A stretch of 64,000 bases of DNA from Alphaproteobacteria bacterium (GTDB taxonomy: Bacteria; Pseudomonadota; Alphaproteobacteria; Sphingomonadales; Sphingomonadaceae), in contig JAUHWC010000002.1 of assembly GCA_030424845.1 (NCBI GenBank), positions 310,001-374,000 of the forward strand. Reading direction: 5' to 3'. Made by a program: the position numbers and the translations under genes. Shown in pieces: positions 7,757-19,459 of the stretch. Each line of letters begins with the position of its first letter. Positions within the stretch are counted from its first letter, which is position 1. Under the pieces are notes generated by a model, which saw only the letters and a list, made by a program, of their open reading frames with translations, had not been told where the DNA came from and did not search any database.

Positions 7757-10414
7757 ATGTTGAAGTTAAAGAGCAGTGTGTCTGTTGGCGCACTTGCCAT
7801 TGCCACGGTCGCAACCCCGGCCTTCGCGCAGGAAGAAGCTGCAGCCAACGAACGCACCGGCGGCGTTGACACCATCCTGGTGACCGCCACCAAGCGCTCC
7901 GAAGACCTGCAGGATGTTCCTGTCTCGGTTCAGGCACTCGGCACCGAACAGCTCGAAGAGCTGAACATCAGCACTTTCGATGATTACCTGAAGCAGCTGC
8001 CTAACGTCACGGCTGGCGGCAGCGGACCGGGCCAGAGCACGATCTACATTCGCGGCCTCGCGTCCACCACGCCCAACCTCACCACTGCCGGTGTGGCTGG
8101 CCTCGCTCCCAATGTGGCGATGTATCTCGACGAACAGCCGCTGGCTCAGCCCGGCCGTAACCTCGATGTCTACGCCGCTGACCTTGAGCGTATCGAAGTG
8201 CTGTCCGGCCCGCAGGGTACGCTGTTCGGCGCAAGCTCGCAGGCCGGTGTGGTCCGCCTGATCACCAACAAGCCGAGCCTTGCAGGCTTCGATGCCGAAG
8301 CCAGCTTCGGCGCTTCCTTCACCAAGAACGGTGAGGCAAGCTACAATGGCGAAGTGATGCTCAATCTCCCGGTAACTGACAATATTGCTATGCGCGTTGT
8401 CGGCTATCTTGATGATCAGGGCGGCTATATCGACAATGTCGCAGGCAGCCGTACAGTGCGCGAAAGTGCTCGCTTCCGTCCGGAAGGCACTATCCGCTCC
8501 AATGGCGTGGCGGTGAATGCCAACCGCGCCGGTTTCCAGTCCGATCCCGCCACGCTGGCGCAGCTGGATGCCAATGTGAACTTCATCGCTGCGGACAATG
8601 CCGGCTTTGTCGAAGATGATTTCAACGACACGCAATATGCCGGTTTCCGCGCCACCGCGCTGTGGGAAGTCAATGAGGACTGGACGGTCACCATTGCCCA
8701 CGCCCGCCAAAGTGTGGAATCCGATGGCGTGTTCTTCACGGACCCAACGCTTGGCCTCGATGACCCGTCGATCCAACGGTACGAGGACGACCGCCTCGAG
8801 GACGACTTCTCCAACACCAGCTGGACCGTCGAAGGCCGCCTGGCCATGCTCGATGTCGTCTACACCGGTGCTTACACGGAGCGTGAAGCTGACCAGCGCG
8901 TCGACTATTCCGACTATCTCTTCGTTGGCCAGTACCTGCCTTATTACATCTGCGACGGCTCGGTGAGCTATCCGGGTGCGGGCGGCCCTAGCGGCACCTG
9001 CCAGGCCCCCAACCTCTATGTCACCTCGCATACCGAAACCGAGGTGCTGACGCAGGAACTGCGTTTCAACACGCCGGAAGAAAACCGCTGGCGCGTGACT
9101 GCAGGCGGCTTTTACTCCGACCTCGAGCTGAAGGAACGCAACGACTTTGCCTATCCAGGCAACACGCTGGCTGATCCGTTCGGCCCCTTCGCGCCCAACT
9201 TCCCGCAGGACGGGTTCTTCACTGATCCGGGCCCTTTCCCGGCAGACACGATCTTCCGCAACGACATCCGTCGTATCGACAAGCAGTTCGGCATCTTCGG
9301 TGAAGCCAGCTTCGATCTTGTTCCGGATCTGCTGACAGCCACCCTCGGTGCGCGCTACTACGACATCGAAGTGGATTTCGAAGGCAGCGCCAACGGCTCC
9401 TTCTGTAACTCCGGTGCAGCGCAGGATGCCAACGCATTCGGTACCGACATCAACGACCTGTACGACGGCGACGGCCAGTACACCTTTATCGGTTCGTGTA
9501 ATGCCGCGCTTCGCCAAACGTTCACTCAGGGCGACAGCATTCAGGACATCATCGATGCAGGCCTCTCAGCCGGTCAGGCGCAGCAGGTTTTCAACGCCCT
9601 GTCCGCGCCTGATGTGGCCAAGGCCAAGGGCACGATCCTGAAAGGCACTGTCACGGTCACACCGACCGAAGACACGATGTTCTATGCCACCTATTCCGAA
9701 GGCTTCCGCCCCGGCTTGCTTAACCGTCCCGGCGGCGCGCCCGGCCCGAATGGCTATACCGTGCCGTTCGAACTGGAAACAGACGAGGTGGAGAACTATG
9801 AAATCGGCTGGAAGCTTGACCTGATCGACGGTCAGCTACGCTTCAACGGCAGCGCCTTCTATGTCGATGTCAGCAATTTGCAGACGACGATCTTCGATCC
9901 CAGCATCACCAATCTGTTCTTCTCGGACAATGCGGCGAATGCAGAGATCAAGGGCATTGAGGCAGACTTCACTGTCGCGCCTTATTCTGTGCCAGGCCTG
10001 ACCATTGCCGGTGCCTTCTCGATCCTCGATACCGAGATCAAGCAGGTGCTCACACCGACCAATGACGTGATCGTTGGCAGTGACCTCGCCTTCGCGCCGT
10101 CCTTCCAGGGCAATATGCGCGTTCGCTACGAGTGGGACCTCAATAGCTCGCTCGAAGCATGGGTCATGCCGCAGGTGAGCCATTCGGCATCGTCCTTCAC
10201 GGACATCATCGAGATCAACAAGCTCAAGCTGGACAGCTACACCACCGTCGGCCTGTCAGTCGGCGTGGCGGCAGACCAGTGGCGCTTCGAGGTCTATGGT
10301 GAAAACCTGTTCGACGAGCGCGCGCAGATTTCGGGTAACTTCGTGAACGACCGCGCCCGCGTTACCATCAACCGTCCGCTGACTGTCGGCTTCAAGGCTT
10401 CCTACAGCTACTGA
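7757..10414 (+). CDS. TonB-dependent outer-membrane receptor
   Basis: An 885-residue protein with a cleavable signal peptide (hydrophobic 8-20, ending AFAQ at 22-25). A TonB-box-like TILVTATKR is followed by a plug domain (VPVSVQALG, YIRGLAS, GPQGTLFGASSQAGVVRLIT). A long beta-barrel ends in aromatic FKASYSY as expected for BamA recognition. It moves a ligand across the outer membrane using TonB energy. The substrate is unknown; the family in sphingomonads takes up siderophores, glycans and many other compounds. A TPR-sulfotransferase follows 88 bases downstream. Confidence 0.93.
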   Translation: MLKLKSSVSVGALAIATVATPAFAQEEAAANERTGGVDTILVTATKRSEDLQDVPVSVQALGTEQLEELNISTFDDYLKQLPNVTAGGSGPGQSTIYIRGLASTTPNLTTAGVAGLAPNVAMYLDEQPLAQPGRNLDVYAADLERIEVLSGPQGTLFGASSQAGVVRLITNKPSLAGFDAEASFGASFTKNGEASYNGEVMLNLPVTDNIAMRVVGYLDDQGGYIDNVAGSRTVRESARFRPEGTIRSNGVAVNANRAGFQSDPATLAQLDANVNFIAADNAGFVEDDFNDTQYAGFRATALWEVNEDWTVTIAHARQSVESDGVFFTDPTLGLDDPSIQRYEDDRLEDDFSNTSWTVEGRLAMLDVVYTGAYTEREADQRVDYSDYLFVGQYLPYYICDGSVSYPGAGGPSGTCQAPNLYVTSHTETEVLTQELRFNTPEENRWRVTAGGFYSDLELKERNDFAYPGNTLADPFGPFAPNFPQDGFFTDPGPFPADTIFRNDIRRIDKQFGIFGEASFDLVPDLLTATLGARYYDIEVDFEGSANGSFCNSGAAQDANAFGTDINDLYDGDGQYTFIGSCNAALRQTFTQGDSIQDIIDAGLSAGQAQQVFNALSAPDVAKAKGTILKGTVTVTPTEDTMFYATYSEGFRPGLLNRPGGAPGPNGYTVPFELETDEVENYEIGWKLDLIDGQLRFNGSAFYVDVSNLQTTIFDPSITNLFFSDNAANAEIKGIEADFTVAPYSVPGLTIAGAFSILDTEIKQVLTPTNDVIVGSDLAFAPSFQGNMRVRYEWDLNSSLEAWVMPQVSHSASSFTDIIEINKLKLDSYTTVGLSVGVAADQWRFEVYGENLFDERAQISGNFVNDRARVTINRPLTVGFKASYSY

Positions 10415-10502
10415 TCCGCAGCACAGGCGAACCATTCAGGCGGCGGCGGCAGATCCTTCACGGGGTTTGCCTCCGCCGCTTTGCTTTGTATCAGGGCGCA
10501 AG

Positions 10503-12470
10503 ATGGCCGATCGCGATGAACAGCTGAAAGCCGCGCAGCAGGCGCTTCAGGCAGGCGATTTCGCTGCTGGGCTGGCGCAGGCAGAAACGCTGCTGAACGG
10601 CGATCCAACGGACGGCGAGGCGCTCTACATGGCCGCCGCCGCGTGCCGCTATCTCAAGCAGTATGACAAGGCAGGAGCATTGCTGCAGCGCCTTCACGAG
10701 GTGATGCCTGAATATGGCCGTGCCTGGCAGGAGGCCGGCCACCTTGCTCGCGTGCAAGGCGATCCTGCTGCGGCGATCCACGCTTTTGAGCGGGCCACTC
10801 GCTTCAATCCCGCATTGGAAGCGAGCTGGCGCATGCTCGCCGAATTGCTGGCCTCCCAAGGTCGCGCTGCAGAAGCGGGCACAGCGCAACAGCAGCATAA
10901 GCGCATCGCCACCATGCCCAAGGCACTGGTCGCCGTGACGCACCACTTGCACGAAGGCCGGCCGCTGCGCGCAGAGGAGATCTGCCGCCAATATTTGCGC
11001 GCCAATCCGCGCGATACCGAAGGCATGCGCTTGCTCGCCGCCATCGGCAAGCAGATGGGCATTCTGGACGACGCCGAATTCCTGCTGGAAAGCGCAGTGG
11101 AGTTCGATCCTGACAATATCCAGCTGCGGCTCGACTATATTCAGGTCCTGCGCCAGCGGCAGAAGTTCTCCGAAGCTCATAAGCAGGCCGAGCGCCTTTA
11201 CAAAAGCGATCCGCAGAACCCATTGTTCGCCTCTCACCTCGCCATCGAGAGCATGCAGACCGGCGCCTATGATCGCGCTTTCGAATTGTTTGACGAAGTG
11301 TTGGCCAAGTTACCGAATGATCCGGCCACGTTGACCAGCAAGGGGCACGCGCTGAAGACTACCGGCAAGCAGAATGATGCCATTGCATCCTACCGCGCAG
11401 CCATCGCCGCGAAGCCAGACCATGGCGACGCATGGTATGCACTGGCCAACCTCAAGACGTGGTCGTTCGAGAATAACGATATCGCTGCCATGTATAGCCA
11501 GCGGGAGCGGCCTGACCTCGCCTTCATGGACAAGGTCTACCTCTCATTCGCCTTAGCCAAGGCGCATGAGGATCGAAGTGAATACGAAGAGAGCTTCCTC
11601 CATTATAAGACGGGCAACGAACTGAAACGGCGACAGGCGCGCTACGATGCAGACAGCATGAGCCGCGAATTGCGGGCGCAGGCAGAGCATTGCACCCCCG
11701 ACCTCTTCGCCAAATACACCGGCTCAGGCCATGAAGCGCCTGACCCAATCTTCATCCTTGGCTTGCCGCGCGCTGGTTCGACCCTGCTAGAACAGATCCT
11801 CGCCAGCCATTCGCAGATCGACGGGACGCTAGAGCTGCCCAATATCCTGGCGCTGGCGCATAAGTTGCGCGGTCGCAAGGCGGGTCAATCTCGCTACCCA
11901 AAAGTGCTTCATGAGTTGGACGCCGAGCAGCTAAAGCAATTCGGGCGGGATTACATCGAAAACACCCGCATCCACCGCCAACGCGCACCGTTCTTCATAG
12001 ACAAGATGCCCAACAATTTCCGGCACATCGGTCTGATCCACCTGATCTTGCCCAATGCGAAGATCATCGATGCCCGCCGCGCGCCAATGGATTGCTGCTT
12101 CTCCGGCTTCAAGCAGCTGTTCGCCGAAGGGCAGGAATTCACTTACGGCTTGCACGAAGTCGGGCAATATTATGCTGACTATGTTGCGCTGATGGGCCAT
12201 TGGGACACAGTGCTGCCGGGCAAGGTGCTGCGTGTCCAGCATGAGGACGTGCTTGACGATGTAGAAGGGCAGACACGCCGAATGCTCGATTTTCTCGGCG
12301 TTCCATTCGAAGAGGCCTGCCTAGACTTCCACAAGACCGAACGCGCCGTACGCACTGCGAGCAGCGAACAAGTGCGCCGCCCGATCAACCGATCAGGGCA
12401 ACATGCGTGGAAGCCATTCGAGCCGTGGCTCGCTCCGCTAAAGGATGTGCTGAGAGATCTCGCTCCTTAA
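10503..12470 (+). CDS. TPR-repeat sulfotransferase
   Basis: A 655-residue, apparently cytoplasmic protein in two parts. Residues about 1-380 are tandem tetratricopeptide helices (for example AYDRAFELFDEVLAKLPNDP). Residues about 415-640 form a PAPS-dependent sulfotransferase domain with the 5'-phosphosulfate loop LGLPRAGSTLLEQIL at about 419 and a 3'-phosphate element RRAPMDCCFSGFKQLF. It should transfer sulfuryl from PAPS to an unknown acceptor. The ATG at 10503 is chosen because homology starts there; an ATG at 10467 adds 12 residues. It lies just downstream of the TonB-dependent receptor, probably in the same transcript. Confidence 0.88.
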   Translation: MADRDEQLKAAQQALQAGDFAAGLAQAETLLNGDPTDGEALYMAAAACRYLKQYDKAGALLQRLHEVMPEYGRAWQEAGHLARVQGDPAAAIHAFERATRFNPALEASWRMLAELLASQGRAAEAGTAQQQHKRIATMPKALVAVTHHLHEGRPLRAEEICRQYLRANPRDTEGMRLLAAIGKQMGILDDAEFLLESAVEFDPDNIQLRLDYIQVLRQRQKFSEAHKQAERLYKSDPQNPLFASHLAIESMQTGAYDRAFELFDEVLAKLPNDPATLTSKGHALKTTGKQNDAIASYRAAIAAKPDHGDAWYALANLKTWSFENNDIAAMYSQRERPDLAFMDKVYLSFALAKAHEDRSEYEESFLHYKTGNELKRRQARYDADSMSRELRAQAEHCTPDLFAKYTGSGHEAPDPIFILGLPRAGSTLLEQILASHSQIDGTLELPNILALAHKLRGRKAGQSRYPKVLHELDAEQLKQFGRDYIENTRIHRQRAPFFIDKMPNNFRHIGLIHLILPNAKIIDARRAPMDCCFSGFKQLFAEGQEFTYGLHEVGQYYADYVALMGHWDTVLPGKVLRVQHEDVLDDVEGQTRRMLDFLGVPFEEACLDFHKTERAVRTASSEQVRRPINRSGQHAWKPFEPWLAPLKDVLRDLAP

Positions 12471-12901: not shown

Positions 12902-13885
12902 CTAAAAAGCGGACGTTCCCTTCGGCCCTATCGGCCTGCGACCGTTGCGCCATGCGCTGGGTGTGCAACCAAACCGTTGCCGGAAACGACGTGCGAAGTG
13001 ACTTGGGTCGCAAAAGCCTGCTTCGAATGCGATGTCGCCGACCGAACTCGGATCGAGAGAGCCAGCGGAGAGTCGATCTGCGGCATATTGCAGGCGGCGT
13101 TCGATCAGCTGGGCACCGAAGGTTGTCCCTTGGCTTGCAAATAGCCCATGCAGATGCCGTTTCGAGATGCCGGCCTCTCTGGCCAGCTGGTCTGGCGACA
13201 GATCGGGGTCAGCAAACAGCCTGTCGAGCAGCGCTTTGACACGATTGAACGTGCTCGTTCGCACTACACACCTCGCACTCGCGTTCTGGCCGATCAGCGC
13301 GAATAGGCTGCCGATCTGGTCTGCAATTACATCGCGCGGTACGGCACAGTCGGCGACTCCGTTTGCAGCGATCAGGCGCAGCAGCGATGCCAGCGGCGTG
13401 CCCCACTGCGAGCGTGCCTGCCACGGCATCTGGCGCAGGCTCTCCGGATCACGGAGCCACTTGTCCATCCAGCTTTGCGATACGTGGATCGACAGCGCGA
13501 CATTCTCTCGCGGACATTCAAATTCATAGGGCACAGCGTTGCGCAGAATACCAAAATCGCCTTGGCGGATCAGCTGTTCGTCGCCGCACTCCCGCACGAT
13601 CATCGAACCGCGCTGCATGTAGACGATCTCGTAAGAGCCTTCAGCAGTGCTGCGCGTCATTTCCGGCGTGCGCCGTACGATCTGCGGCGTGGTGCCCAGA
13701 ACGTTGAGGTCGATGGGACCCAGAGCCGTCTGCGTCCAACTAGCCTTGAAACTTTCCGGCTGCGCGGCATCAACGTGTAGCTCAGTCATGTGCGTGGCGA
13801 CGGTGTCATTCCAGCGCGACATCTTTGCGCCAACGCTCCAGCTGTCGGTGGCCCAGCTTCTGTCAGCCAATTGTCCAAGCGCCAT
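12902..13885 (-). CDS. AraC-family transcriptional regulator
   Basis: A 327-residue protein with an N-terminal cupin-like sensing domain (AraC_binding_2 type; ...GSMIVRECGDEQLIRQGDFGI) and a C-terminal double helix-turn-helix at about 225-320 (AREAGISKRHLHGLF, DIAFEAGFCDPSHFARRFRQ). It is divergent from the p-cresol-methylhydroxylase-like operon and most likely activates it in response to an aromatic effector. The ATG at 13885 follows GGGAGAGGG; a strong hairpin abuts this ribosome site. Codon use is less GC3-biased than in the housekeeping genes, consistent with acquired DNA. Confidence 0.87.
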   Translation of the reverse strand: MALGQLADRSWATDSWSVGAKMSRWNDTVATHMTELHVDAAQPESFKASWTQTALGPIDLNVLGTTPQIVRRTPEMTRSTAEGSYEIVYMQRGSMIVRECGDEQLIRQGDFGILRNAVPYEFECPRENVALSIHVSQSWMDKWLRDPESLRQMPWQARSQWGTPLASLLRLIAANGVADCAVPRDVIADQIGSLFALIGQNASARCVVRTSTFNRVKALLDRLFADPDLSPDQLAREAGISKRHLHGLFASQGTTFGAQLIERRLQYAADRLSAGSLDPSSVGDIAFEAGFCDPSHFARRFRQRFGCTPSAWRNGRRPIGPKGTSAF

Positions 13886-13902
13886 GTCGTCAAACCCTCT
13901 CC

Positions 13903-13929
13903 CCGGAAGGTGGTTATCCCACCTTCCGG
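13903..13929 (-). promoter_or_regulatory. perfect 11-bp hairpin in the AraC-gene leader
   Basis: CCGGAAGGTGG and CCACCTTCCGG are perfectly complementary around a 5-base loop. In the AraC mRNA the hairpin would end immediately before the ribosome site GGGAGAGGG, 17 bases before the ATG at 13885. It could act as a leader structure limiting translation, as an attenuator, or as a protein operator; sequence alone does not decide. Confidence 0.5.
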
Positions 13930-13971
13930 TCATTGGCGCTGACAATAGCGCATTGCCCGCCGATCGCAAAT

Positions 13972-14061: not shown

Positions 14062-15732
14062 ATGATCACCAGACGAAATTTCATCCGCAATTCGGCAGCC
14101 GGAGCCGGGCTGACCTTGGTAGCCGCCAACGGCGCACTTGCAGCCGGGCCGGACGGGGCACCGCTGCCACCGCAGGTCAGCCGCAGCACCTTCGATTCCG
14201 CGCTGGATGCATTGCGTGCAATCGTCGGGCCGCGAAACGTGTTCTCCGATTCCGACCAGCTTGCTGGTTACAATGACCACTTCGCCATGAAGCCGCCTGA
14301 AGAGCACGCGCCCTCGGGTGCCGTGGCACCGACTTCGGTCGACCAGATCCAGCGCGTGCTGGCTGTCGCGCGTGAGCATGGCATTCCGGTTTGGACCATC
14401 TCGACCGGGCGCAACCTTGGCTATGGAGGGGCTGCGCCACGTATGCCCGGCACCCTGGTTCTCGACCTGAAGCGAATGAACCGCATCATCGAGGTCAACG
14501 AGAAGCATTGCTACGCTATCGTCGAGCCGGGCGTCTCCTACACCGAGCTTTACCGCCACCTGCGCCGCACTGGATCGCGTTTATGGATCGACTGCGCAGC
14601 GCCCGGCTGGGGCGGTGTGGTGGGCAACCTGCTGGATCGCGGCGTCGGCTATACGCCGATGGGCGAACACTTCCTGCAGCAGCAATGCGGGATGCAGGTG
14701 GTGCTGTCGGATGGGACGGTTGTCGACACCGGCATGGGCGGGCAGGCGGGACAGGCTGCCATGAGCGTGTATCGCTATGGCAATGGCCCCTGGGTCGACG
14801 GGTTGTTCACCCAGTCCAACCTCGGCGTGGTGACGCGTCTGGGCGTGCAGCTGATGCCCGAGCCGCCCGGCTATCGCCCCTATATGGTCACCTTTGCGGA
14901 TGAGGACGCGATCCAGCCGCTGACCGAGGTCGTACGTCCGCTGAAGCTGGCGCAGCTCATCCCCAATGCGGCAACGTCAACCGAACTGCTGTGGGAGACC
15001 GCCGTCGAGAAGCGCAAGGACCAGTACTACACTGGGGAGGGCGCACTGCCGGACAGCGCCCGACGCGCCATCATGGACGATCTCGATGTCGGCAACTGGA
15101 GCTTCTACGGGGCACTCTACGGCACAGATGAGATGATGGACGCCACTTGGGAGGTGCTGCGCGACAGCTTCTCCACTATTCGCGGTGCGCGCTTCTTCAC
15201 AGAGGCCGAGAAGGGTCACACCGCAAGCTGGCAATACCGCGCCAAGTTGATGCGCGGCGAACCCAACATGACCGAATTCGGCACCGTCGCCTGGATACCC
15301 AATGCAGCCCACGTCGGCTTTGGCCCCGTCGTACCCGTCGATGGCGAGCTGGCCCTTCGGCAATACAACCGTGTGCGGCAGATGTCGGAAGAGGCAGGCT
15401 TCGACTACTTCGGCGAGTTCATCGTCGGTTGGCGGGACATGCACCATATCTATATGCCCGCTTTTCGGCGCGACCGGCCGGAAGAGAAGCAGCGCCTGCT
15501 CGAACTGCTCGATCGCCTGATCGACGATGCAACCGAAGACAGCTTTGGCGTCTATCGCACCCATCTCGATTTCATGGACAAGGTCTCGCAGTCCTATTCG
15601 TTCAACGATGGCGCGCTCGGCCGCTTCAATGCACGGCTCAAGGCGGCGATCGACCCGAGCGGCATCCTTGCGCCGGGCAAAAGCGGCATCTGGCCCAGCC
15701 AGTTCTGCGAAGGAGGCCTGCCATGCGGATAA
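14062..15732 (+). CDS. pchF: p-cresol methylhydroxylase-like flavoprotein subunit (VAO family)
   Basis: A 556-residue FAD enzyme of the vanillyl-alcohol-oxidase family. It begins with a twin-arginine signal (ITRRNFIRN, then a hydrophobic stretch ending ANGALAAG), so it is likely exported folded by Tat. The FAD-binding PP loop STGRNLGYGG lies near residue 118, the FAD domain continues through GVGYTPMGEH, and the C-terminus has DPSGILAPGKSGIW. Such enzymes oxidise 4-alkylphenols or 4-hydroxybenzyl alcohols and pass electrons to a cytochrome c, which is the next gene. AGGGAG precedes the ATG by 10 bases. The symbol is by family; the substrate is unproved. Confidence 0.85.
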   Translation: MITRRNFIRNSAAGAGLTLVAANGALAAGPDGAPLPPQVSRSTFDSALDALRAIVGPRNVFSDSDQLAGYNDHFAMKPPEEHAPSGAVAPTSVDQIQRVLAVAREHGIPVWTISTGRNLGYGGAAPRMPGTLVLDLKRMNRIIEVNEKHCYAIVEPGVSYTELYRHLRRTGSRLWIDCAAPGWGGVVGNLLDRGVGYTPMGEHFLQQQCGMQVVLSDGTVVDTGMGGQAGQAAMSVYRYGNGPWVDGLFTQSNLGVVTRLGVQLMPEPPGYRPYMVTFADEDAIQPLTEVVRPLKLAQLIPNAATSTELLWETAVEKRKDQYYTGEGALPDSARRAIMDDLDVGNWSFYGALYGTDEMMDATWEVLRDSFSTIRGARFFTEAEKGHTASWQYRAKLMRGEPNMTEFGTVAWIPNAAHVGFGPVVPVDGELALRQYNRVRQMSEEAGFDYFGEFIVGWRDMHHIYMPAFRRDRPEEKQRLLELLDRLIDDATEDSFGVYRTHLDFMDKVSQSYSFNDGALGRFNARLKAAIDPSGILAPGKSGIWPSQFCEGGLPCG

Positions 15733-16073
15733 GAATTTTCGCCCTCGGCCTGCTGACAACAGCAGCACTTGTTCCATTCGCAGCGATTAATGCGCAGCAG
15801 GCCAAACCGCAGGAGCGCAGCGGAGAAGACCTCTACCAGCAGTGGTGCGCGGGTTGTCATGATCCGGGTCCGGGCCATCCCGGCACCATGCGAATGGAAG
15901 GCGATTTCGGGCCCGAAAATTCCGTGTTACGTGACATGCAGGCGATCAACCGCCCGCTGATCCATTATGCCGTGCGGCAAGGCTTTCAGATGATGCCCCC
16001 ATTCCGGCCAACCGAAATCACCGACGAGGAAGTAGACCGGATCGCGGACTACCTGCTGGAAGAAGGGCAATGA
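15723..16073 (+). CDS. pchC: cytochrome c subunit of the methylhydroxylase-like enzyme
   Basis: A 116-residue secreted monoheme cytochrome c. A Sec signal peptide (hydrophobic 6-22) is followed by the heme site C42-A-G-C45-H46 and a likely axial methionine at 90 or 91 (FQMMPPF). Its start overlaps the flavoprotein stop by 10 bases and its stop overlaps the next start by 4, so the three genes are translationally linked. By analogy with PCMH it takes electrons from the FAD subunit in the periplasm. Confidence 0.88.
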   Translation: MRIRIFALGLLTTAALVPFAAINAQQAKPQERSGEDLYQQWCAGCHDPGPGHPGTMRMEGDFGPENSVLRDMQAINRPLIHYAVRQGFQMMPPFRPTEITDEEVDRIADYLLEEGQ

Positions 16074-17461
16074 GCATGAGCCTGATCGAAAGCCTGAACC
16101 AGACAGGGATGGACCTGGAGCTTCTCCGTCCGGGCGACACCGCCTTCGATGCGCTGGCAGAGCGCTTCGCTACCCATCCGGGAGTTGAGGTGGATTACGT
16201 CGTGGCCGTGCGTCCTAGTGAAGCCGAAGCCGTGCAACATGCAGTAGCTGCCGCGCACACACATGGCGCGGGGCTGCTCACCGTGTACAACGCCTCCAAC
16301 ACTGGCGCGCAGCTTTGCGGTGAGAGCGAGACGGTTATCCTCGACCTGTCACGGCTAGACCGCGTCCTCGAAGTCGATGTCGACAATGGCTACGCACGGG
16401 TCGAACCGGGTGTCAGCTATGCCGCTTTGTCCGCCTATCTGGCAGAGCATGGCCATGCGTTGCAGGTAGACAGCGAGCGCGATGGCGCAGCATCGATCGC
16501 CGGCAGCACCTTTGCCAAGGGCATCGGCTACACGCCATACGGCGAACACGCGCTGGTGCAATGCGGGGCTGAGTTCGCAACGCCCTATGGTGAGCTGGTT
16601 CGCACAGGCATGGGCGCCATGCCGGGCAGTAAGACTTGGCAGCTCTACAAATATGCGCTGGGACCTTATTCAGACGGGCTGGCCATGCAGTCTGGCCTGC
16701 TCGTGCCAACCCAGATTGGCGTCTGGCTGATGGGACAGGTGCCTGTCACCCAGACTTTGGCATACGAGATAGCCAATACTCAGGCCCTGTCCGAAGTCAT
16801 CGAAGCGTTGCGTGAATTCAAGATTGCAAACTTGCTACCTGGCACCGTCAGCCTGACCCACCGCGAGTTCGATGAGGCCCGCCATCCCGAGATTGCCGCT
16901 TCCGAATGGCGATTGACCTCGGCGCTCTATGGGCTTCCCAATCTGATCGCACTGGCAAGAGCAACGATTGATGGAGCGCTTGCGGCCATTGCAGATGTTC
17001 GCGCGGTCAGCGTTGAAGAACAGGCTGGGTCACCCGTCTGGCAGGAGCAGGCCGCGCTGGTATCAGGCCAGCCAGGCGTCGCAGGCGTGTCGTTCCCCGG
17101 TATCGATGCCAGCCATGTGGCAAGCCTGACTATGGTCGCCCCCATCGAAGATCGTTTCGCACTTGCGATGGGCGGGCACGCAAAGCAGGCGCTCGCTGAA
17201 CACGGCTTACCGTTTCTGACTGAAATGGCGGTTGTCGGGCGCTCCTTGTTTCAGAAGATCTATCTGCCTTATACTCCTTTCAATCCGCGCAGCGAGGAGC
17301 GCCTTACCGAGAGTGCAAGGCAGTTGGTGACCGCAATGCAGCAGCACGGAATCGGCGTCGCAGCCCAGAGCTTTGAACTCGCCGGCCTCGGTCTTGGCCG
17401 AGACACCGGGAGTGGATTGGCCGAGTTGCACCGGAGGATTGAAACGGCCCTTACGGCATAG
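16070..17461 (+). CDS. divergent second VAO/PCMH-family flavoprotein-like protein
   Basis: A 463-residue paralog of the flavoprotein two genes upstream. Alignable stretches include LDLSRLDRVLEVDVDNGYARVEPGVSY and GIGYTPYGEH. It is odd in three ways. It has no signal peptide. The FAD pyrophosphate loop that reads GRNLGYGG in the partner is NASNTGAQLCGE here. It ends without the GILAPGKSGIW tail. It may be a noncatalytic or differently acting subunit, or an enzyme on another substrate. The 4-base overlap with the cytochrome gene argues for a joint function. Confidence 0.75.
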   Translation: MSMSLIESLNQTGMDLELLRPGDTAFDALAERFATHPGVEVDYVVAVRPSEAEAVQHAVAAAHTHGAGLLTVYNASNTGAQLCGESETVILDLSRLDRVLEVDVDNGYARVEPGVSYAALSAYLAEHGHALQVDSERDGAASIAGSTFAKGIGYTPYGEHALVQCGAEFATPYGELVRTGMGAMPGSKTWQLYKYALGPYSDGLAMQSGLLVPTQIGVWLMGQVPVTQTLAYEIANTQALSEVIEALREFKIANLLPGTVSLTHREFDEARHPEIAASEWRLTSALYGLPNLIALARATIDGALAAIADVRAVSVEEQAGSPVWQEQAALVSGQPGVAGVSFPGIDASHVASLTMVAPIEDRFALAMGGHAKQALAEHGLPFLTEMAVVGRSLFQKIYLPYTPFNPRSEERLTESARQLVTAMQQHGIGVAAQSFELAGLGLGRDTGSGLAELHRRIETALTA

Positions 17462-17863: not shown

Positions 17864-19459
17864 ATGCAGTTCGCAGAACCTCAAGTCCTAATCGTGGGGG
17901 CCGGACCGTCTGGTCTGATACTGGCGCATGAATTGCTACGCCGTCAGGTTACTGTGCGATTGATCGAAAAGCGCCAGGGTCCCTCGCATACAACGCGCGC
18001 GATGACCGTTCATGCTCGCTCTATGGAGATGTTCGAGCATATGGGGATCGCTTATCGGCTCGAAGAGGTCTGCCTCGAATGCCCCGGTAATATCTACAAC
18101 TTTCCACATTTAACGGCCGAAGAGCAGCCGCGCACCGATTATCGCGTACTGCCGACGCGCTTCGCCTTCTATTACAAGATCAACCAGAATGATTTTGAAC
18201 AGGTGCTACGCGAACACCTTCTGGCGCAATACGGGATAAAGCCTGAATACCGAACAGAACTCGTCGGGCTTGATGCCAGCAGTGACAGCGTCGCGGCGCA
18301 GATCAAGTTACCCGACGGCCGGGTGGAGGCGCATCGCTACCCATGGGTTGTGGGCTGTGACGGCAAGCGCAGTTTTGTGCGTGATGCGGCCGGTATCGCC
18401 TTTGAAGGTGAACAGGTTGCAGTGATGTCAATGATGGACGTGCAGCTCGAAAACGTGACTTTTGATGATCGCTGGATGAACTACTTCTTCAACAAAGACC
18501 TGTTCATGAACTGTACCAAATTGCCCGGTAAGAACTGGCGCATCTACATGAGCGAGCCTTCAGGAGAGTATGTCTATGCGAGCGACCAGCGCGCGGCCTT
18601 CCAGGAGGTTGCCGACAAGATCGGTATTGGATTCAAAGTCGGTGAGCCCGAATGGGTCACCGCTTGGGAAATCCTCAACAATATTGCCGAGCGTTATCGT
18701 AACGGGCGATTAGTGATTTGCGGCGACGCCAGCCATATCCATTCTCCATCGGGAGGGCAGGGTATGAACGGTTGCATGCAGGATGCTTTCAATCTGGGCT
18801 GGAAACTGGCAGCCGTGTGCCAGGGCCGGGCCGACGCTGCTATTCTTGACAGCTACGAGAAGGAACGAAAGCCGATCGGCGAGCAGATTAGCGAAGGCGC
18901 AATGGCGACCCACCATATCGTAATGGGCTTCGGCGACGAACCCAAAGAGCGCTGGAAACAAACACAGGAGCCGGGTTGGGAGGAGCATACGATCCACCTC
19001 GTGTCCGGCCTGTCGCACAACTACAGCGACAATGTCGTGTTGCCCGACGGCATTGCAAAAGTCGCTGGACCGAAAGCCGGCGCAAGAGCGCCCGATGCAA
19101 TGTTGGTGCGCGAACCGCAGAAGCGTGTCTACGACGTCCTGAGGCATCCCGGCTTCACACTGCTCATCGTTCCCGGCGAAGAGAAACAGGCCCAGCTGGA
19201 GTTGGCCAAATCGGTTCGCAGTAAACTGGAAGAACGATACCCCGGTCAAATCTCGGTTTGCCTGATTGCGGACGACAAGGATGCCGGTTTCGACTATGAT
19301 CACATGGTCCCGGACGAAACCGGCGAGATTCGCGAACGCTACGAGATAGGCGAAGAGGGGCGTTTCGTTCTCGTGCGCCCAGATCTCTATATCGGCCTAT
19401 CTGTATTGCCCGAAGATGGCATGTCTATCGCCACCTATCTGGAACAGTGGTTCGCCTAG
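17864..19459 (+). CDS. FAD-dependent aromatic-ring monooxygenase
   Basis: A 531-residue class A flavin hydroxylase. Motifs are the dinucleotide-binding GAGPSG at 12-17, the DG motif VVGCDGKRSFVRDAAG near 163, and the GD motif VICGDASHIHSPSGGQG near 286. A thioredoxin-like C-terminal domain occupies roughly 390-531, as in phenol hydroxylase, MhpA and PcpB relatives. It should hydroxylate a phenolic compound with NAD(P)H and oxygen. An AGGAG lies 11 bases before the ATG. GC3 is visibly lower than in neighbouring genes, pointing to transfer. It fits downstream of the phenol-oxidising operon in a catabolic block. Confidence 0.86.
   Translation: MQFAEPQVLIVGAGPSGLILAHELLRRQVTVRLIEKRQGPSHTTRAMTVHARSMEMFEHMGIAYRLEEVCLECPGNIYNFPHLTAEEQPRTDYRVLPTRFAFYYKINQNDFEQVLREHLLAQYGIKPEYRTELVGLDASSDSVAAQIKLPDGRVEAHRYPWVVGCDGKRSFVRDAAGIAFEGEQVAVMSMMDVQLENVTFDDRWMNYFFNKDLFMNCTKLPGKNWRIYMSEPSGEYVYASDQRAAFQEVADKIGIGFKVGEPEWVTAWEILNNIAERYRNGRLVICGDASHIHSPSGGQGMNGCMQDAFNLGWKLAAVCQGRADAAILDSYEKERKPIGEQISEGAMATHHIVMGFGDEPKERWKQTQEPGWEEHTIHLVSGLSHNYSDNVVLPDGIAKVAGPKAGARAPDAMLVREPQKRVYDVLRHPGFTLLIVPGEEKQAQLELAKSVRSKLEERYPGQISVCLIADDKDAGFDYDHMVPDETGEIRERYEIGEEGRFVLVRPDLYIGLSVLPEDGMSIATYLEQWFA

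Follow-up and report, generated by a model that had tools for sequence, protein, structure and literature searches.

Why would an operon for a flavocytochrome of the p-cresol methylhydroxylase (PCMH) type encode, next to a catalytically complete flavoprotein and a cytochrome c, a second flavoprotein that lacks the active site? This question is raised by a stretch of 64,000 nucleotides (nt) from a bacterium of the family Sphingomonadaceae (GenBank assembly GCA_030424845.1, contig JAUHWC010000002.1, positions 310,001 to 374,000 of the forward strand), the whole of which is referred to here as the window; its genome probably belongs to a relative of Alteraurantiacibacter buctensis. The gene of the first flavoprotein, FlavA, overlaps the cytochrome c gene by 10 nt, which in turn overlaps the gene of the second flavoprotein, FlavB, by 4 nt (ATGA), and the operon of three tied genes suggested in the initial annotation is confirmed by these coordinates. 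The operon probably encodes a heteromeric PCMH-type flavocytochrome, in which FlavB would be a non-catalytic half of the dimer that is likely free of flavin adenine dinucleotide (FAD) and provides a segment of the subunit interface in trans.

FlavA starts with MITRRNFIRNSAAGAGLTLVAANGALAA and possesses the GRNLGYGG loop, Tyr121, the pair Tyr498-Arg499 and the C-terminal tail LAPGKSGIW. It thereby carries the residues of a PCMH catalytic subunit (Tyr95, Tyr473, Arg474 and the tail in the numbering of the flavoprotein PchF, which is used below), and its gene overlaps that of a cytochrome c partner. FlavB lacks the catalytic Tyr, the Tyr-Arg pair, the FAD loop and the tail. In the window FlavB, Tyr95, Tyr473 and Arg474 are absent. 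As initially described from the sequence, NASNTGAQLCG stands in place of GRNLGYGG, and neither the LAPGKSGIW tail nor, as judged by eye, an export signal is present. What FlavB retains is the vanillyl-alcohol oxidase (VAO) fold. The Pfam domain FAD_binding_4 is found in both flavoproteins (82.3 bits in FlavB), FAD-oxidase_C in FlavA only and Cytochrome_CBB3 in the middle gene, and FlavB matches the same solved structures as FlavA, chiefly over its first half. A structural model of FlavB built from 26 sequences adopts the VAO fold (mean predicted local distance difference test score, pLDDT, 84.4; predicted template modelling score, pTM, 0.85), and Foldseek gave template modelling (TM) scores, normalized by query length, of 0.85 to 0.86 to VAD, nsVAO and PchF; EUGO and VAO match as well. 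Judged by its sequence, FlavB is a member of the VAO/PCMH family by fold, but not one of its active enzymes.

Sixteen pairs of FlavA and FlavB, representing each lineage once or a few times, were compared with 24 other FlavAs including PchF, which were chosen by hand and whose oligomeric state is mostly unknown; many of the sequences stem from the wide scan described below. Among the 223 alignment columns conserved in at least 85% of the 24 other FlavAs, mean retention over five lineages is 0.92 in paired FlavAs and 0.68 in FlavBs; 107 columns are kept in both, whereas 47 are kept in paired FlavAs and lost in FlavBs. The latter include Arg91, Tyr95, His436, His437, Tyr473, Arg474 and positions 510-512, 514 and 515. 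A complete FAD site was not found among the 16 FlavBs: Tyr473 and the four tail residues 511, 512, 514 and 515 are kept in none and Tyr95 in at most one, and the GRN loop is altered in most, with replacements that vary among lineages (N-A-S-N-T, N-H-S-G-N, N-G-A-H, P-G-E). The class was defined by the missing catalytic Tyr, and the loss of this residue is therefore not independent evidence. Since residues of both the FAD loop and the active site are lost, FlavB has likely lost FAD.

FlavB is not a peculiarity of the window. In a search with an alignment of four FlavBs against 396 genomes of the order, FlavB was found in at least 10 (scores of 499 bits or more, against 370 or less for the next group), a lower bound because only the four best candidates per genome were scored, and in all 10 a FlavA is encoded upstream on the same strand and contig. 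With the best four or five candidates scored per genome, a FlavB-like score was seen only in the window's own genome among 385 genomes of the wider class; G699 (383 bits) and G588 (362 bits) were rejected as FlavBs, as their catalytic residues are kept. A wide scan with an alignment of ten FlavBs covered the contigs of 84,980 species genomes and yielded 212 stretches encoding a relative, the best 80 of which were kept as loci (prefixed L where they have to be told apart). FlavB is encoded in 49 of these 80 loci, leaving aside one open reading frame (ORF) on the reverse strand of L149 and ORFs of fewer than 400 amino acids (aa; five fragments). A cytochrome c ORF is present in all 49, and in 45 a same-strand gene for a Tyr-type FlavA of 440 aa or more ends 338 to 3696 nt upstream; of the other four, two have a FlavA truncated by the end of the contig, and two are situated too close to such an end. 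In this survey, which was seeded with FlavB, a Tyr-type FlavA thus accompanies the protein wherever a scanned locus leaves space for it, and a second flavoprotein is encoded together with the α and β subunits, as in an αα′β2 type. No description of FlavB was found in the open literature searched; subscription papers lay outside the search, and absence from print is not claimed.

The core of FlavA, cytochrome and FlavB is common to all operon types. The order FlavA-cytochrome-FlavB, termed class I, is found in the window, L045/L088, L081/L087, L086 and L089 (a slash joins loci of one contig); it recurs in A. buctensis (L086), whose FlavB and FlavA are 94% and 96% identical to those of the window, a Novosphingobium, an Altererythrobacter bin and a Sphingomonas bin. 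In class II, the order is UbiX-small Tat protein-FlavA-aldehyde dehydrogenase-UbiD C-D-FlavB-cytochrome, as far as the contigs reach (Tat, twin-arginine translocation); its hosts are Sphingobium, Sphingopyxis and Erythrobacter, and it includes all kept Novosphingobium FlavB loci except L087. By annotation, plasmid pNL1 of Novosphingobium aromaticivorans (L174, 1826-9624) also has the class II order, with a FlavB-like protein of 488 aa. Plasmids of Paraburkholderia aromaticivorans show FlavA-cytochrome-aldehyde dehydrogenase-UbiD C-D-FlavB-UbiX, and gammaproteobacterial bins (Cycloclasticus, Piscirickettsiaceae, Porticoccaceae) UbiX-small Tat-FlavA-cytochrome-UbiD C-D-FlavB, with an aldehyde dehydrogenase in some. 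In L107, a bin titled Deltaproteobacteria and placed in the Myxococcota by NCBI taxonomy, the order is small Tat-FlavA-cytochrome-FlavB, with UbiD genes upstream on the other strand; among 297 genomes of its phylum (best four or five candidates scored in each), four matches were obtained, of which, by eye, only that of L107 is a FlavB. Most FlavB loci also carry genes for a UbiD-type decarboxylase, an aldehyde dehydrogenase and UbiX, whereas no UbiD match was found in the examined stretches of the class I loci, including the window. Given what PCMH, aldehyde dehydrogenase and UbiD/UbiX enzymes are known to do, the class II operons suggest a route from p-cresol or a relative via 4-hydroxybenzaldehyde and 4-hydroxybenzoate to phenol.

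In a quick maximum-likelihood tree of 63 representatives (midpoint root; branches long, that of Paraburkholderia the longest), FlavB forms a single group with a Shimodaira-Hasegawa-like approximate likelihood ratio (SH-aLRT) support of 99, comprising Alpha-, Beta- and Gammaproteobacteria and L107. The single group and the linkage to FlavA speak against the possibility that FlavB is an ordinary oxidase encoded next to FlavA by coincidence. Evolution is faster in FlavB than in FlavA: in the tree, the window and the Altererythrobacter bin are separated by a path of 1.04 for FlavB, compared with 0.15 for FlavA. Between the window and A. buctensis, the one pair compared, the ratio of non-synonymous to synonymous substitutions (dN/dS) amounts to about 0.18 in FlavB and to 0.05 in FlavA; FlavB is thus constrained, under purifying selection that is looser than that on FlavA. 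Because the gene order recurs in relatives and FlavB is under purifying selection, the three-gene operon is not a product of chance. A different second flavoprotein, FlavM, whose GYG loop still contains the catalytic Tyr and which has Leu-Lys instead of Tyr-Arg, was seen in four loci and occupies the operon place of FlavB in L129, L141 and L154; it lies outside the FlavB group in the quick tree, although a common group is not rejected (approximately unbiased test, p-AU 0.31).

A hint at what FlavB might do comes from positions 194-218, RTGMGxxPxxxTWQxFKxGxGP, here called the interface segment. In the 16 pairs, FlavB retains 0.95 of the conserved columns in this segment versus 0.65 elsewhere, and paired FlavA 0.75 versus 0.94; in ten more distant FlavAs, which played no part in the choice of columns, the values are 0.94 for the segment and 0.83 for the rest. 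Retention in FlavB ranges from 0.88 to 1.00 in all five lineages, and retention in paired FlavA is 0.64 in class I, 0.68 in class II and 0.68 in the gammaproteobacterial lineage. At six single columns (196, 208, 209, 215, 262 and 280), conservation is lost in FlavA and maintained in FlavB; column 280 is Ser, Thr or Ala in all 16 paired FlavAs and aliphatic in FlavB. When all 205 blocks of neighbouring columns were compared, the 21 blocks in which retention is higher in FlavB than in FlavA were all located at the segment region. Tyr244, Tyr249 and Ser255 of VAO presumably fall within or just after this segment, with the numbering of the VAO sequence anchored by Ile238 in the title of PDB entry 1w1k. 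In a simulation of VAO, phenols enter via the subunit interface along a path that includes these three residues, and the PCMH residues Glu177, Met180 and Asp434 named in the same account agree with the PchF numbering used here (PMC5646868). Erosion in the active FlavA combined with retention in the dead FlavB is what would be expected if the segment serves the active site of the neighbouring subunit.

Several points weigh against this interpretation. The segment was picked after inspection by eye and before testing, and columns and lineages are not independent, so that p-values are guides only. The wide scan used patterns that lie in the very segment tested: the gammaproteobacterial and L107 FlavBs were found only in this way, their retention is therefore partly selected, and FlavBs without the segment would escape the scan. 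Erosion of the segment in FlavA is weak in Paraburkholderia (0.84 versus 0.93 elsewhere) and L107 (0.89 versus 0.95), and class II FlavAs keep Arg196, Trp208 and Gln209, with changes in neighbouring residues instead. Residues 182-201 of the FlavB model are of low confidence; this was considered as a sign of a missing partner and rejected, because a FlavA control model (22 sequences, mean pLDDT 67.3) shows the same uncertainty there, and also in other loops, which makes the local confidence neutral. FlavB may have a weak or altered FAD site. Finally, Tyr-type FlavAs without an adjoining FlavB exist (L085, L127), and a FlavB partner is thus not obligatory for the family. L085 (5668-13801) otherwise resembles class II and encodes two complete flavoproteins and no FlavB, in the order FlavA-cytochrome-FlavA-cytochrome-aldehyde dehydrogenase-UbiD.

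Because the scan loci are selected for the segment, the comparison was repeated without scan-found sequences, using 38 other FlavAs (PchF, BpfA and 36 that remained of 77 ORFs after 14 belonging to FlavA/FlavB pairs, 22 redundant ones and 5 without catalytic residues had been dropped), 9 pairs (class I, Paraburkholderia, class II) and 165 columns. Retention in the segment is 0.76 in paired FlavAs (elsewhere 0.94), 0.92 in FlavBs (0.66) and 0.95 in the other FlavAs (0.96). Paired FlavAs of class I and class II reach 0.67 and 0.73, respectively, whereas erosion is again weak in Paraburkholderia (0.87, elsewhere 0.95). Blocks with higher retention in FlavB lie at the segment region in 14 of 14 cases (151 blocks), or in 20 of 21 under a laxer threshold (212 blocks). 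The reciprocal pattern thus stands in classes I and II and is weak in Paraburkholderia, and the gammaproteobacterial and L107 FlavBs rest on the biased scan.

From these data, the following mechanism can be proposed. FlavA, the α subunit, would bind FAD and oxidize a para-alkylphenol or 4-hydroxybenzylic substrate via a quinone methide, and the electrons would pass from FlavA to the cytochrome c. FlavB, as α′, would be a catalytically dead sister of FlavA that occupies the position of the second flavoprotein of the dimer; probably devoid of FAD, it would supply the interface segment in trans and thereby line the chamber at the subunit interface that presumably gives phenols access to the active site. 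The Tat signal of FlavA would take both proteins across the membrane as a folded complex. Since FlavA carries the only Tat-like start in the operon, as judged by eye, such hitchhiking of FlavB is compatible with the sequence.

Of the roles considered initially, that of a noncatalytic partner is well supported by the loss of the active site, the linkage to FlavA and the single group in the tree. There is some, albeit low, probability that FlavB is instead an assembly or export factor, which would bind FlavA, alone or with the cytochrome, while the enzyme folds, takes up FAD or is exported by Tat, and would be released before the enzyme is in its working form. The conserved co-occurrence would fit such a factor equally well, and FlavB has neither a signal nor an active site of its own and evolves faster than FlavA; however, its VAO fold and interface segment suit a permanent dimer partner better, and the separate small Tat-type protein beside FlavA in most FlavB loci outside class I is a better candidate for an export helper. 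It is unlikely that FlavB constitutes an enzyme in its own right, with a re-shaped FAD and active site, that acts on an intermediate of the pathway. While the FAD_binding_4 match and the 107 columns kept in both groups would be in line with this, the replacements in the loop and the active site vary by lineage, which does not resemble a new shared site, and the tail is lost; a distinct cytoplasmic enzyme, as also considered initially, is likewise disfavoured, as the FAD site is incomplete and FlavB is tied to a Tyr-type FlavA.

FlavB follows the UbiD subunits in most loci and could therefore serve the UbiD-type decarboxylase or another enzyme of the pathway rather than FlavA; the class I operons, that of the window included, make this very improbable, as they consist of FlavA, cytochrome and FlavB with no UbiD match in the examined stretch. 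Hardly any credence can be given to the idea that FlavB is a decaying duplicate that is carried along: its faster evolution and lost catalytic residues would be expected of one, but the protein forms one group across several classes, with open frames, a dN/dS of about 0.18 and a retained segment. The reading as a permanent, noncatalytic dimer half might be extended further, although here doubt slightly prevails: FlavB could define a widespread class of asymmetric PCMH-type flavocytochromes, in which FlavA provides FAD and catalysis and FlavB the interface segment, working in trans alone. A symmetric chamber with two active sites would thereby have turned into a chamber with one active site and one dedicated gate. 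FlavM, which takes the same operon place in gammaproteobacterial bins and has partly lost its active site, might then represent an earlier or parallel stage. If this is true, a single biochemical oddity, the FAD-free α′ reported for the Geobacter PCMH, would turn into a widespread architecture that includes pNL1 of the aromatic degrader N. aromaticivorans. Such enzymes would be a natural experiment on why VAO/PCMH enzymes dimerize, as the roles that a subunit plays for itself and for its neighbour would be separated; furthermore, the annotation 'FAD-binding oxidoreductase' would miscount FlavB as an enzyme, and expression of FlavA without FlavB may fail.

The closest solved relatives of the window FlavA are the vanillyl-alcohol dehydrogenase (VAD) of Marinicaulis flavus, followed by eugenol oxidase (EUGO), allyl-syringol oxidase and PchF. 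FlavA was initially regarded as canonical, which holds for its Tat-like start, judged by eye, and its complete active site, but not for the flavin attachment site. It has Val at position 384, where PchF has Tyr384, its FAD-linking residue, and Tyr at 367, the site of the FAD-linking His of the oxidases. A tyrosyl flavin link is described for PCMH-type dehydrogenases (PMC7617285), and the Tyr for an 8α-O-tyrosyl FAD is replaced by Val in the window protein. Because of this Val and the Tyr at the His site of the oxidases, FlavA probably holds FAD non-covalently. The Tyr at the His position was itself considered as a covalent link and rejected, since PchF Tyr384 aligns elsewhere, with the Val.

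Tat-like starts are also found on the class I FlavAs of L045, L081, L086 and L089. Many FlavAs without a signal are adjoined by a small protein of about 130-230 aa with a Tat-like start, for which no Pfam match was obtained in three examples, and which may carry the flavoprotein through the Tat system. No such neighbour was found for FlavAs with a Tat-like start of their own (class I; L011, L046, L048), except in L086 and L089, where spurious-looking ORFs lie opposite the AraC gene. A fair number of the remaining FlavAs showed neither a Tat-like start nor a small Tat protein.

The coordinates of the operon, its neighbours and the additional proteins are compiled in Table 1. The order of a divergent AraC gene followed by FlavA, cytochrome and FlavB is common to L081, L086, L087 and L089, and the AraC-type regulator likely controls the operon. 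A relative of the downstream FAD_binding_3 monooxygenase is also encoded 3′ of the operon in A. buctensis; the enzyme possibly catalyses a later step of the pathway. A fusion of a TPR domain and a sulfotransferase (10467-12470) lies between a TonB-type receptor (7757-10414) and the AraC regulator. In the window's genome (G000), 12 FAD_binding_4 matches were obtained, including further PCMH-like flavoprotein-cytochrome loci on contigs C1, C2 and C9 (L009-L012), and two of these, L009 and L010, each contain two flavoproteins and two cytochromes side by side.

Table 1. Features of the FlavA-cytochrome-FlavB operon and related proteins. Positions refer to the window unless a locus is named.
Feature	Position	Strand	Remarks
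Divergent AraC-type regulator	12902..13969	-	Pfam HTH_18 and AraC_binding_2
FlavA, PCMH-type catalytic flavoprotein (α)	14062..15732	+	556 aa; Pfam, best solved relatives, active-site residues
Tat-like signal region of FlavA	14062..14145	+	RRNFIR, then hydrophobic stretch; by eye
FlavA copy of the interface segment, eroded	14725..14802	+	DTGMGGQAGQAAMSVYRYGNGPWVDG; alignment
c-type cytochrome subunit (β)	15723..16073	+	116 aa, one CxxCH (CAGCH)
FlavB, VAO/PCMH-fold pseudo-flavoprotein (proposed α′)	16070..17461	+	463 aa; no signal seen
Altered FAD loop of FlavB	16289..16321	+	NASNTGAQLCG; aligned to GRNLGYGG of FlavA
Interface segment kept in FlavB	16601..16678	+	RTGMGAMPGSKTWQLYKYALGPYSDG; alignment
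FAD_binding_3 aromatic-ring monooxygenase, downstream	17864..19459	+	Pfam
FlavM	L129 7836-9404; L141 7836-9404; L148 1383-2996; L154 7406-8974		
Small Tat-like proteins	L010 8627-9016; L012 7752-8282	-	
Small Tat-like proteins	L093, L107, L129, L145, L149, class II loci		

Among the known systems, PchF/PchC of Pseudomonas putida (PDB 1DII) resembles FlavA and its partner in fold, Tyr95, Tyr473, Arg474, the C-terminal tail and the adjoining gene for a c-type cytochrome. The P. putida enzyme is described as α2β2 with one flavoprotein (PMC13416013). Unlike this enzyme, the window operon adds a second, dead flavoprotein, and its FlavA has Val in place of PchF Tyr384. The initial statement that known PCMH has only one flavoprotein fits P. 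putida, but is too strong in general: the PCMH of Geobacter metallireducens was reportedly described by Johannes et al. in 2008 as αα′β2 with an α′ that lacks FAD. With the subunits PcmI (α), PcmJ (α′) and PcmG (β), this enzyme would share with the window system two flavoprotein isoforms, one of them FAD-free (in the window only probably so), and a cytochrome. PcmI, PcmJ and PcmIG are named in PMC12724174, which cites Johannes et al. and also describes a membrane-anchoring complex, PcmCDEF, as part of the Geobacter system. The same source gives identities to BpfA of 41% for PcmI and 39% for PcmJ; the window FlavB is 27% and four other FlavBs are 33-38% identical to a BpfA-like protein. BpfAB of Sphingobium yanoikuyae DN12 is, like the window system, an alphaproteobacterial pair of flavoprotein and cytochrome, for which FAD is described as loosely and non-covalently bound and a signal peptide as predicted in BpfB and not in BpfA (PMC12724174). 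In strain SJTF8, FlavB was not found in the stretch examined around the genes matching BpfAB on plasmid pF1, and a class II cluster is located on another plasmid, pF2. VAD of M. flavus, nsVAO of Novosphingobium, EUGO and VAO share the fold of FlavA and FlavB; unlike FlavB, their chains are catalytically complete, and a chamber or a path for ligands where the subunits meet has been described for VAD and VAO (PMC7617285, PMC5646868).

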